Assembly (NCBI GenBank): GCA_029861785.1
Contig: JAOTYR010000003.1
Coordinates: forward strand, 1 to 43,169
Reading direction: 5' to 3'
Origin: Candidatus Nitrosopumilus sp.
Lineage (GTDB): Archaea; Thermoproteota; Nitrososphaeria; Nitrososphaerales; Nitrosopumilaceae
Length of the DNA stretch: 43,169 nucleotides
Under the pieces are notes generated by a model that saw nothing but the letters and a program-made list of their open reading frames with translations, searched no databases and was not told the origin of the DNA. A program made the translations under genes and the position numbers. This document shows positions 23,650 through 28,187 of this stretch, piece by piece (the stretch's first letter is position 1; each line of letters opens with the position of its first letter).

Positions 23650-23760
23650 ATGGCAGAAGCAGGTATAGCAGCATTTGGTGCAGCAGCAGGCGTTGCAATT
23701 GCTTTAGCAGTTGTGTGCTTTGCATTACGTGGAAAAGGGCATCCAGAACCACTAGATTAA
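23650..23760 (+). CDS. 36-residue single-helix membrane protein
   Basis: This gene is too short for standard ORF calling: ATG 23650 to TAA 23760. Residues 4-27 are one Ala/Gly-rich hydrophobic helix, followed by a short charged tail with RGKGHPEPLD. A clear TATA-like AATTATAAAA (23613-23622) lies about 32 bases upstream, the codon use is GC-richer than the flanks, and there is no overlapping gene, so the ORF looks real and well expressed. It resembles the small accessory subunits found in respiratory and ATP synthase complexes, but I cannot assign it. It converges with the Cas4-like gene. Confidence 0.6.
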   Translation: MAEAGIAAFGAAAGVAIALAVVCFALRGKGHPEPLD

Positions 23761-23793: not shown

Positions 23794-24441
23794 TTAATTT
23801 TCCTTTGCTAGTCCTAGCATTTCAGCTAAAGAGAGTTGCTTTGAGTTCTTCTTGCCGATGAAACATCTCTGATAATATTGGCAATCTGCACAATTTGCAG
23901 AAGGTTCAAGAATTGGCGTTTTTTGTTCATTTAACAGATCACAAAAAACTCTAACTCTTCTTATTATCTCTTCAAACATTTTTTTATCACGAGTCAGAGA
24001 AAAAGTAAACTCTTCTCTATTATTGGTAATGTAGATTATTACCCCATCTGTTTTGTCATAAATCCACAAACATGAATTTAGATAAAGTAAATCCTGCGCA
24101 AGAGGTGATTCAGTAATACCTTGACTGGGTCTAAATAAAACTATGATGTCATCTACTAGCATATCTGCCTGACCCTTCAATTTAATATCATCAATTGCAA
24201 ACTCTTTTGCAACGCTACCATACTCTAATTTTCGAAGTAAACCGCTAAGTAGGTCATTAAATCCCCTCCTTTCAATCTCTTTTGAATCTGTTCTATCATA
24301 ATACGATCTTCGTAAGCATTGTACTACCTCTTGTAAGTGAATAGTTTTAAAATCACCCGAATTAATCTCAATTTCTAATTCTCGTCCAATCGAATCCACT
24401 GCATTTTTAATCGTACTTCTATAATCTCTATCACCCATCAT
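23794..24441 (-). CDS. Cas4/RecB-like PD-(D/E)XK family protein lacking ExK
   Basis: The protein has 215 residues. The four Cas4-type iron-sulfur cysteines are present: C42 (VVQCLRR), then C184-x2-C187-x5-C193 at the C-terminus. The nuclease core has D93 (GQAD) and the later Q116-x3-Y120 motif (PLAQDLLYLN). The ExK signature expected about ten residues after D93 is replaced: the aligned residues read VLFRPS, so the catalytic Glu and Lys appear lost. It may bind DNA or an Fe-S cluster without cutting, or use shifted residues. No CRISPR array or other cas gene is seen. It is the last gene of a minus-strand run with atpC. The start is ATG 24441. Confidence 0.75.
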   Translation of the reverse strand: MMGDRDYRSTIKNAVDSIGRELEIEINSGDFKTIHLQEVVQCLRRSYYDRTDSKEIERRGFNDLLSGLLRKLEYGSVAKEFAIDDIKLKGQADMLVDDIIVLFRPSQGITESPLAQDLLYLNSCLWIYDKTDGVIIYITNNREEFTFSLTRDKKMFEEIIRRVRVFCDLLNEQKTPILEPSANCADCQYYQRCFIGKKNSKQLSLAEMLGLAKEN

Positions 24442-24473: not shown

Positions 24474-24710
24474 TTAATTCATAATCTTGGTGAGAAATTT
24501 TGAAATCCTACCTGAAAAAGCAAATGCAACAAAATGAGCGCTAAATCCTAACACTGCACCCAATACAAGATTTCCAGTACCGTAATAGATTCCAAGAAAT
24601 ATTCCCAAAGCCGGAATAGTAAAAATCATTGCTAAAAAGGTGCTAATCCATATCGTATTAATTACAATTTCAGTAGGAATCTTCTTTTTTTTAGAAGGAA
24701 AGTTTGACAT
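24474..24710 (-). CDS. Small two-helix membrane protein next to atpC
   Basis: The product has 78 residues with a polar KKKK-containing N-terminus, two membrane helices (about 15-38 and 44-62) and a basic tail. The helix-turn region holds GIFLGIYYGTGNLVLGAVLG. It begins 8 bases after the stop of atpC and is co-transcribed with it, which recalls the small AtpZ/AtpI-like accessory membrane proteins encoded with ATP synthases. The sequence similarity I can judge by eye is not enough to say so, hence no gene name. It has no soluble domain. Confidence 0.7.
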   Translation of the reverse strand: MSNFPSKKKKIPTEIVINTIWISTFLAMIFTIPALGIFLGIYYGTGNLVLGAVLGFSAHFVAFAFSGRISKFLTKIMN

Positions 24711-24718
24711 TTTTAGGA

Positions 24719-25756
24719 TTAATCTTCTTCAAGAATTAGTTTAGACATTGTAATTTCTGTAGGGATTTTTTGTTCTACTGCATAAGCAATAGCTGCCAAA
24801 TTTCTTACCTCATATGCTGTTAATTTGGTTATACCAATTATAGTTGCAAAACTGAACATCTTGGTGAAAGATCTCAATGATGATTGATAAATTTCTAATT
24901 CAAAAGCTCTTTCAAACTCTGATATTGAATCTAATTCGTTTTCAGCTTCGGGAATTAGATTCTTGTATCTAGTACTAGTTAACTCATTAAATGCATCTCT
25001 AACTGAGGCCGCACTAATCATTCGTCCTAACAATTCTCTTGATGCGCTTGGAGTAACCGAAACAATCAAGTCATTAATCTGATCTTCTTCTAGACCCCAG
25101 AATTTTCCGCGTATTACACTTAACAAATTATAAAAATCAATATCCATTCCAATTAATTTGGTAACTTCAGTTTCTCTGCTATTTTTTATTGCACGACCTA
25201 GCTGTTGGTACAAAATTTTATCAAAATAAATATCAAAAATTTGAATATTCTTTTTATCATTATAAAGAGCAGCGGCCTTTGTAATTTCCTCTCCAAATTT
25301 TCCAGAGCTTAGACTTGCTACTGTTTCTTCCAAATCTTTTGCTACAAGCGCTTTAATGACAATGTCTCTTTGTTTGATCAACTCTTCTGCATGTAGATTG
25401 ATATGCATTTCAATTTCTTCCTGGGTTTTTCCTAGTACTTTTCCTTTTAGTACTGACTTTAAATTAGAAATAATAAATTTCAGGTAATATGCATTAAAGA
25501 TACTTTTATCCCCTGCTGTTTTTGCAATAGAATAATGAACATCTGCTAAATGTCCACGTAATGCGTTTTCAATCTTTTGAGAAGTATAGGGTTTTTGAAC
25601 ATCCGAAACTGAATCTCCGTAAATTGTATTTTTTATTCTAGTCATCAACTCTTCCAAGTCTCGTGATTCAGATAATGTTTGAAAATCCGCTTTTTTTAAT
25701 AACTGACCTCTCTTACTATATGATTTTACTGAAGCATAGACATTCTTGGAGCCCAT
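24719..25756 (-). CDS. atpC: A-type ATP synthase subunit C
   Basis: Subunit C (AhaC/NtpC, d-subunit of V-ATPases) is the helical funnel that couples the central stalk to the K ring. The 345 residues contain the typical YASVKSYSKRGQLLKKADF opening, LKFIISNLKSVLKGKVLGK (about 92-112) and INDLIVSVTPS with the three-fold helical repeat of the family. There is no signal peptide. Its location here, minus strand and about 5 kb away from the E-A-B-D-K block, shows that the ATP synthase genes are split over at least three transcripts. The start is ATG 25756. Confidence 0.88.
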   Translation of the reverse strand: MGSKNVYASVKSYSKRGQLLKKADFQTLSESRDLEELMTRIKNTIYGDSVSDVQKPYTSQKIENALRGHLADVHYSIAKTAGDKSIFNAYYLKFIISNLKSVLKGKVLGKTQEEIEMHINLHAEELIKQRDIVIKALVAKDLEETVASLSSGKFGEEITKAAALYNDKKNIQIFDIYFDKILYQQLGRAIKNSRETEVTKLIGMDIDFYNLLSVIRGKFWGLEEDQINDLIVSVTPSASRELLGRMISAASVRDAFNELTSTRYKNLIPEAENELDSISEFERAFELEIYQSSLRSFTKMFSFATIIGITKLTAYEVRNLAAIAYAVEQKIPTEITMSKLILEED

Positions 25757-25822: not shown

Positions 25823-26491
25823 TCAAGTAATTTCACTAAGTAATCTAATTGCCTCATCCTTTTCGGGGTTTGATAGTTTCAAAACTGCCTCAAGAATCTC
25901 CTTTTGAATAACAAGGGATTCATCAGGAATGTTTTGTAGCTTTGAGAGATCAAAAGGGAAAAGATCTATGATTTTATCATCACAAAATGCCTTTACATAT
26001 TTTTGAAAAATCGAATAGGTAAAATTTGGACTTGTTCTAGAAAGGTTAGTCAGGACTTTTTCAAATTCTTTTTCTTTGGAATCAGATTCTGAGAAAAATT
26101 CAATTAGTAATTTTTCTTTATTTTCAACTTCCTTTATAGATAAAGCAATCAAAACACCCTTTCGAGTTAAATGGTAAAATGGAATTCCCTTTTCTTGAAG
26201 TGCTTTAGGACCACGTTTTAGCGGCAACCTACCATGTTCTTCGGCAATACCCATAGGAAGTAGTATCTCATCTAGATCCCGAAATATCCCTGAATAGATG
26301 TTCTTCCAGACAATCCCCTGACCTTTTGCAATTTTTTGCGAAATCCCTGTTCTTGTTCTTTCAGCAGGATTAGCATTGCTTGATAGGATTCGTATAATCG
26401 ATCTCTGTCTCATAGCCTCACCTGTAAGACTATTATATTTGGTCTTGAATGTGTCAAAAATTGATAATTTTGTTTTTGATTTCACCTTCAA
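25823..26491 (-). CDS. Hypothetical protein with possible winged-helix, divergent to amt
   Basis: The 222-residue protein has no signal peptide or membrane segment. Residues about 35-115 may form a winged helix: RQRSIIRILSSNANPAERTRTG, IAKGQGIVWKNIYSGIFRDL, and a GIPFYHLTRKGVLIAL wing typical of archaeal DNA-binding proteins. The C-terminal half is helical and acidic. The start is TTG 26491. It is divergent from amt across 127 bases, so a role in controlling ammonium transport can be proposed; there is no direct support. The family is not recognised. Confidence 0.6.
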   Translation of the reverse strand: MKVKSKTKLSIFDTFKTKYNSLTGEAMRQRSIIRILSSNANPAERTRTGISQKIAKGQGIVWKNIYSGIFRDLDEILLPMGIAEEHGRLPLKRGPKALQEKGIPFYHLTRKGVLIALSIKEVENKEKLLIEFFSESDSKEKEFEKVLTNLSRTSPNFTYSIFQKYVKAFCDDKIIDLFPFDLSKLQNIPDESLVIQKEILEAVLKLSNPEKDEAIRLLSEIT

Positions 26492-26618: not shown

Positions 26619-28187
26619 ATGAATTCTAGGAACCACAAGTATGCTCTATTACTTGTGGCCGCAGTAGCCATTACGTCAACTGGAGCAATGTCACAAGCAT
26701 TTGCTCAAAGTGTTGACGATGGTATGGATGGATATGTTAAAGGAACCAGTGGAATTTACACTGGTAATCCTAACGAATGTTGGTTTGATGATGGCGAAGG
26801 CAACATGTTGCCCTGTAGAATTGATACAGGTGATACAGCATGGATGCTTGCAGCTACGTCAATGGTACTACTCATGTCTCCAGGAGTCGGATTCTTTTAT
26901 GGCGGTTTAGCCAGATCAAAGAATATCGTCAATGTACTTGGTATGACCATAGTTGTTATGGGATTAATGTCAGTACAATGGGTTCTCTGGGGATACTCCT
27001 TGGCATTTGCACCAAACGCAGATGAGGGAGCCAATATGTTCATGGGAAGCCTTGATTATGCAGGATTCAACATGGTATCGCCGTTTGCACCATTAGGTGG
27101 AGCGGGACCATGTGGAGATACGTGGTCAGCAGCTTACCAAATGAATGCAATGGTTGAAGGAGAAGAATGTAGCCAAGATTGGCCTGGTACAGTCCCACAT
27201 CAACTATTCGCAATGTTCCAAGCTACATTTGCAATTATTACACCGATTCTAATTATTGGTGGTCTAATTGACAGAATAAAGTTTAGCGCATTGGTCATAT
27301 TCGTACTCTTATGGGGAACCTTCGTTTACGATCCAATTGCACATTGGGTCTGGGGAGGCGGATTCATAGGAGGAGGAGGACTGGATCTTAATCCAGAACT
27401 ATATCCAGACTATGCATTAGACTTTGCAGGTGGTACTGTTGTACACATTTCTTCGGGATTCGCTGCGTTAGCAGGTGCTTTGGTCCTTGGTAGAAGACTT
27501 GGATATGGCAAAGTACCAATGGAGCCTCACAACATACCAATGGTAGTCCTCGGTGCAGGAATACTCTGGTTTGGATGGTTTGGTTTCAACACAGGAAGCG
27601 AAGTAATGGTAGACGGCATTACAGTAAGCGCATGGACTGTTACAAATACAGCAACAGGTATGGCAGCAGTAACTTGGATTTTAGTGTCTTGGGCACATAC
27701 AGGAAAACCAAGTATTATTGGTGCAGCATCTGGTGCAGTAGCAGGATTAGTAGCGATCACACCAGCCTCAGGTTTTGTTGGTCCAATGGCTGCAATAATA
27801 ATTGGTATTGCAGCAGGTACAGTTTGTTATGGTGCAATTTCCTTTAAGAACGCTCGAAAATGGGACGACGCATTAGATGTATGGGGCGTCCACGGAATGG
27901 GTGGTCTTACAGGAGCAATCCTAACTGGTACACTAGCTAGTCCCCACATATGGGATACTGGTGGTGATGGTACTGGTGCATGGACTGGTACTGCAGAAGG
28001 TATGGAACAGCAAGCAATTAGCATTATCGCTGCAGCAATCTCAGTAGGATATGCATTTGGTCTAACCATTATAATCCTGAAAGTAATGGATGCCGTGTGG
28101 CCTGGCGGAATCAGAGTCACTCCTAAAGAAGAGGAGATTGGTCTCGATTTGGCACAGCACGGAGAAAGAGCATACGTAAACGAATAG
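26619..28187 (+). CDS. amt: Ammonium transporter
   Basis: This 522-residue Amt/Mep/Rh protein moves ammonium or ammonia into the cell, where it is the energy source and nitrogen source of ammonia oxidisers. A signal peptide (about 1-29, cut after AFA) is followed by an extended polar linker and eleven predicted membrane helices. The pore His pair is present in GGTVVHISSGFAAL and WGVHGMGG, and the family motif NIVNVLGMTIVVMG is clear. The C-terminal tail is short and charged. The position beside ATP synthase genes matches what I recall for the second Amt of Nitrosopumilus maritimus; no GlnK gene lies next to it. The start ATG is probably leaderless. Confidence 0.96.
   Translation: MNSRNHKYALLLVAAVAITSTGAMSQAFAQSVDDGMDGYVKGTSGIYTGNPNECWFDDGEGNMLPCRIDTGDTAWMLAATSMVLLMSPGVGFFYGGLARSKNIVNVLGMTIVVMGLMSVQWVLWGYSLAFAPNADEGANMFMGSLDYAGFNMVSPFAPLGGAGPCGDTWSAAYQMNAMVEGEECSQDWPGTVPHQLFAMFQATFAIITPILIIGGLIDRIKFSALVIFVLLWGTFVYDPIAHWVWGGGFIGGGGLDLNPELYPDYALDFAGGTVVHISSGFAALAGALVLGRRLGYGKVPMEPHNIPMVVLGAGILWFGWFGFNTGSEVMVDGITVSAWTVTNTATGMAAVTWILVSWAHTGKPSIIGAASGAVAGLVAITPASGFVGPMAAIIIGIAAGTVCYGAISFKNARKWDDALDVWGVHGMGGLTGAILTGTLASPHIWDTGGDGTGAWTGTAEGMEQQAISIIAAAISVGYAFGLTIIILKVMDAVWPGGIRVTPKEEEIGLDLAQHGERAYVNE

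Follow-up and report, generated by a model that had tools for sequence, protein, structure and literature searches.

The stretch of DNA analysed here (the window, 43,169 nucleotides from Candidatus Nitrosopumilus sp.) contains casA at 23794..24441 on the minus strand, an intact open reading frame of 215 amino acids for a Cas4-fold Fe-S protein with a degenerate nuclease site. The start, MMGD, is common to its orthologues, which were found throughout Nitrosopumilaceae. We refer to casA and its orthologues as family A and to a second family, the paralogue, as B.

Genes around casA and its paralogue

casA is the last gene of a presumed operon, hyp222-atpC-TM78-casA, on the minus strand. Placed first by spacing and synteny, hyp222 (25823..26491) has no Pfam match; it is followed by atpC (24719..25756), which encodes subunit C of an A-type ATP synthase (vATP-synt_AC39 in Pfam, 200.8 bits), and by TM78 (24474..24710), whose hydrophobic product of 78 amino acids is presumably a membrane protein. 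TM78 is kept in most Nitrosopumilaceae loci at a dN/dS of 0.05-0.10. A preliminary description, made from the sequence alone, had placed casA downstream of the subunit C gene, and it indeed lies two genes downstream. Divergent from hyp222 stands the gene of an ammonium transporter, Amt (26619..28187, plus strand), recognised by tblastn homology to the Amt beside family B; the two share 45-50% identity in tblastn, the B-adjacent one being Ammonium_transp in Pfam.

This gene order, bounded upstream by the divergent Amt gene and at its far end by a conserved hyp181-hyp149-kinase-HD block, holds across Nitrosopumilaceae, casA being inverted in the Nitrosopelagicus loci. The atpC neighbourhood of casA is common, not obligate, and is partly inherited synteny. 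At loci L073, L075 and L082 casA occurs without adjacent atpC, and in a 0.8-Mb genome (G013, locus L232) it is cleanly lost between hyp181 and TM78, a natural deletion that leaves TM78, atpC, Amt and the neighbouring genes in place. An obligate partnership with the ATP synthase was rejected on these grounds: A is kept at loci with no atpC next to it, and atpC is kept where A is gone. Genomes G017 and G014 (loci L230 and L231) lack casA, TM78 and the A-type atpC altogether and carry B instead; the atp genes at this place in them are only 22-26% alike. In families f2, f3 and f8 Amt was not near A in the loci examined, G170 (L256) excepted, and neither Pfam nor synteny revealed recognisable repair or replication genes as neighbours of casA.

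Family B has its own surroundings (an example is L102, 5797-6546, minus strand). An Amt gene lies within a few kb of B in f1, f8 and f2, and a P-II gene stands beside B usually in f1 and in one f8 genome (L099); two conserved genes, h163 and h175, also lie beside B. The C-terminus of B, WGFWARGKWREL, matches the WhiB-like profile phrog_1821 weakly (E 0.005), which we mention as a lead only.

Cas4 descent and the state of the motifs

The Cas4-like character in the first proposal is borne out by profile comparisons. The casA protein passes the Pfam Cas_Cas4 cut-off (PF01930; 25.9 bits, cut-off 22.7) and of 48 orthologues scored one by one, 41 reach E<=0.001 against this model, which places casA in the Cas4 family by descent as judged by sequence profile; the NCBIfam Cas4 equivalog TIGR00372 scores 19.9 bits, below its cut-off of 65. 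Comparison of the A2 profile with canonical Cas4 by hhalign gave a probability of 97.9%, in a register that aligns 48 orthologues with eight ExK-positive solo-Cas4s. SSO0001 Cas4 (4ic1) is the sole relative found in the PDB by sequence-profile search, and also the best fold match there (E 6e-10, TM ~0.58) of an AlphaFold2 model of casA (pLDDT 73, pTM 0.74), ahead of the Cas4 of Cas4-Cas1-Cas2 complexes and then lambda-type exonucleases. The Fe-S region of the model is of low confidence (pLDDT <50 at residues 183-187 and 193-205).

Motifs were counted in 104 members of family A, 32 of family B and the 14 nearest canonical solo-Cas4s; all positions given here are on the minus strand. The four cysteines reported as kept are indeed invariant, C42 (24316..24318) in A, B and canonical Cas4, and C184, C187 and C193 near the C-terminus (23863..23892) throughout A and B; the A/B proteins would accordingly carry a putative bound Fe-S cluster. 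D93 of GQAD (24163..24165) is the sole catalytic-site residue left, Asp occupying this motif II position in 102/104 A, 25/32 B (Glu in the remainder) and 14/14 canonical proteins. L102-F103-R104 (24130..24138) stands at the ExK position. The Glu of ExK, present in all 14 canonical proteins, occurs in 0/104 A and 0/32 B; one family A member has Asp, and most members have Leu, Ile, Val or Met. The orthologue alignment that had been proposed as a check on the replaced Glu (VLFRPS) thus makes its loss lineage-wide (0/136). Replacement of the Lys, also claimed, stands in part only: the residue is Arg in 80 A and 22 B proteins, but this change is conservative, and Lys itself remains in 7/104 A and 10/32 B (14/14 canonical). 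The motif-I His is missing from all 136 A and B proteins and present in all 14 canonical ones.

A Q-x3-Y motif had likewise been described as kept, and here the preliminary description erred. Q116-DLL-Y120 lies off the motif position and is a chance match, Q116 being mostly Asn or some other residue in the orthologues. According to hhalign with canonical Cas4 and to the counts, the true position is Y120..C124 (24070..24084), where the motif is lost: Gln and Tyr both occur in 0/104 A proteins, most of which have Y and C in their place, are partly retained in B (Gln 22/32, Tyr 31/32) and are found in 14/14 canonical ones. Measured against an active PD-(D/E)XK Cas4 nuclease, casA therefore keeps the motif II Asp and lacks ExK, the motif-I His and QxxxY; SSO0001 has ExK (IEIK) and QLQIY where casA has VLFR and YLNSC. 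Other residues have become fixed. E38, R50, N122, R161 and S181 are invariant in A and B, and D97, F103 and K130 occur in at least 93% of these proteins, all eight being absent from canonical Cas4; R44 and R162 are retained. The A/B-specific invariant residues point to a gained role, not to decay.

A nuclease that is still active, with its site completed by other residues, could draw on D93 and Arg/Lys104, which remain, and on E38 and D97 as new near-invariant acidic residues; PD-(D/E)XK enzymes with an altered Glu can stay active, which counts against a non-catalytic reading. However, the site Glu, the His and (in A) the Gln and Tyr are all gone, the residues at the Glu position in most members are those listed above, and structure prediction, also proposed at the outset as a check, puts D97 in the turn that precedes the strand with residues 102-104, which speaks against a completed site. 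We regard an active nuclease as improbable; to judge from these residues, casA has very likely lost nuclease activity.

Conserved motifs have been taken to suggest activity of all Cas4 proteins (Hudaiberdiev et al. 2017, PMC5704561), and our search of the literature found no description of the A/B proteins as inactivated. TP1 of TTV1 is, like A and B, a Cas4 derivative without the motif III Glu and apparently inactive (PMC4625639), but it is a viral fragment without the Fe-S module, whereas A and B are full-length, cellular and possess all four cysteines. A reviewer's caution in the same paper, that loss of the Glu alone is no proof of inactivity, applies to A/B as well, though here the His and, in A, QxxxY are also lost.

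Distribution, origin and selection

Strong A/B matches were found in 185 of 300 genomes of the class Nitrososphaeria, all in families f1, f2, f3 and f8, to which the 201 genomes with amoA are likewise confined. A/B and amoA occur together in 170 genomes, A/B alone in 15, amoA alone in 31 and neither in 84; this is a clade association, not independent co-occurrence. Weak matches outside the four families proved, where followed up, to be ExK-positive Cas4s. Nitrosopumilaceae genomes with the gene almost always hold a single copy, either A or B. An A3 profile search of Nitrosopumilaceae recovered A and B only; an additional, canonical Cas4 of that type, hidden in these genomes, was not found.

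In a maximum-likelihood tree of 77 proteins, rooted on other Thermoproteota Cas4s, A (support 96/83) and B (98/99) form one clade (100/99), and its sister group consists of ExK-positive solo-Cas4s of deeper Nitrososphaeria (86/98); the stem branch of A+B is long (1.76), and long-branch effects are possible. These solo-Cas4s (Cas_Cas4 / DUF83, PF01930) resemble A and B in fold, the four cysteines, the GxxD Asp and length; they keep the His, Glu, Lys and QxxxY, and A and B do not. Because A+B is one clade and its sister group is ExK-positive, the simplest reading is that the active site would have been lost once, in the stem lineage of the ammonia-oxidizing archaea (AOA), before A and B split.

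Sequence comparison with six close orthologues gave a dN/dS for casA of 0.07-0.11, rough values since dS is near saturation, and indicates strong purifying selection after the loss of the active site. A decaying remnant of a solo-Cas4 might be seen in the missing active-site residues and in the clean deletion from the 0.8-Mb genome. This could hardly be reconciled with such dN/dS values, with invariant cysteines and newly invariant residues, and with the fact that most of the AOA genomes examined still have A or B, and we give it the least credence of all explanations considered. The role is nonetheless dispensable in some AOA, because neither A nor B was found in the f8 genera g29 and g43 or in the 0.8-Mb g5. 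At L108 (G029) casA is split into two overlapping frames, a frameshift or an assembly error in this MAG.

The absence of CRISPR noted initially was upheld. cas1 was not found in the source genome (77% complete) or, counting that genome, in 9 of 10 genomes of the source genus; most A/B carriers lack it, and the window holds no CRISPR-like repeat array. The neighbouring cas1/cas2 and array that mark an adaptation Cas4 are thus missing, and a CRISPR link of casA was rejected on the cas1 and array searches. A separate observation concerns the Nitrosopumilaceae genome G024, which has family A as well: at G024:C178:4229-5707 Cas4 and Cas1 matches share one open frame of 560 amino acids, an apparent Cas4-Cas1 fusion.

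Stand-alone Cas4 genes flanking AOA atp operons, apparently the same gene and locus as ours, appear in the passages on these operons in Wang et al. 2019 (PMC6863869), which annotate them as CRISPR-associated exonuclease Cas4, speculate about viruses, and make no mention there of motif loss, of B or of a single origin. A virus-derived or mobile Cas4 mediating replacement of the atp operon, as speculated in those passages, would fit its position beside horizontally replaced operons. Our data argue strongly against it: the tree and a family-specific synteny are vertical, no relatives were found in IMG/VR contigs (scans with A1 and B) or in phage records (tblastn), and where the atp operon was displaced (L230, L231) family A is missing instead of having moved with it. 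A viral origin of A/B was discarded on the same searches, mediation of operon replacement is very improbable, and the idea of casA mediating operon transfer is weakened.

A probable non-catalytic Fe-S protein and its possible roles

We give a probability of roughly 0.6 to casA being a vertically inherited, non-catalytic Cas4-fold Fe-S protein of AOA, which came from a solo-Cas4, was duplicated and was put to other use. The ancestor would have been a solo-Cas4 like the ExK-positive ones still found in deeper Nitrososphaeria. In the AOA stem the metal-binding Glu and the motif-I His would have been lost once, and in family A QxxxY too; duplication would then have produced the paralogues, A next to atpC and B next to Amt and in many cases a P-II gene, both being recruited to a non-nuclease use. 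The preliminary description had considered a non-cutting Fe-S DNA-binding protein. Its non-cutting Fe-S part is well supported by sequence, because the Glu loss is lineage-wide, the origin single, the cysteines invariant and selection purifying, but DNA binding is not hinted at by charge.

The Fe-S domains of Cas4 and AddB bind DNA. A non-cutting protein whose dead cleft and Fe-S domain hold DNA ends or single strands of DNA or RNA, in repair, replication or regulation, would build on this property and on R44 and R162, which are retained, with R50 and R161 as new invariants. TTV1 TP1 gives a precedent, a Cas4 derivative with Glu changed to Arg that became a nucleocapsid protein (PMC4625639). 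An argument for DNA binding from charge was nevertheless dropped, the proteins being acidic (pI 5.3 for casA, median 5.7 in family A); QxxxY and the motif-I His are also lost in A, and the neighbours lack recognised repair or replication genes. Such a function is possible but rather unlikely, and a residual nucleic-acid-binding role of A/B is conceivable.

For the non-catalytic Fe-S protein that we favour, gene context hints at a connection with energy metabolism or the uptake of ammonium. We tentatively propose that the Fe-S module and the dead nuclease core may form a protein-interaction or redox-responsive accessory factor for energy and ammonium acquisition genes or proteins, a proposal less probable than the non-catalytic reading itself. 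That it might more specifically be an AOA-specific Fe-S sensor or adaptor, making ammonium uptake (Amt, P-II) and the synthesis of ATP responsive to the redox, oxygen or NO state, is speculative and doubtful. In an archaeal group that ranks among the most abundant, an entire clade of cellular solo-Cas4s would have lost its active site once while its Fe-S module stayed under selection, which bears on annotations of 'exonuclease Cas4' beside AOA ATP synthase genes and makes A/B a tractable case for the function of the Cas4 Fe-S module without cutting.

Tail-to-tail with casA lies a hydrophobic microprotein of 36 amino acids, MAEAGIAAFGAAAGVAIALAVVCFALRGKGHPEPLD (window 23650-23760, plus strand). 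It was not found in the tested genomes of f2, f3 and f8 or in those of g6 and g9. In about 60 Nitrosopumilaceae loci it is 80-97% identical, better conserved than casA, and it is retained in G013 despite the loss of casA.
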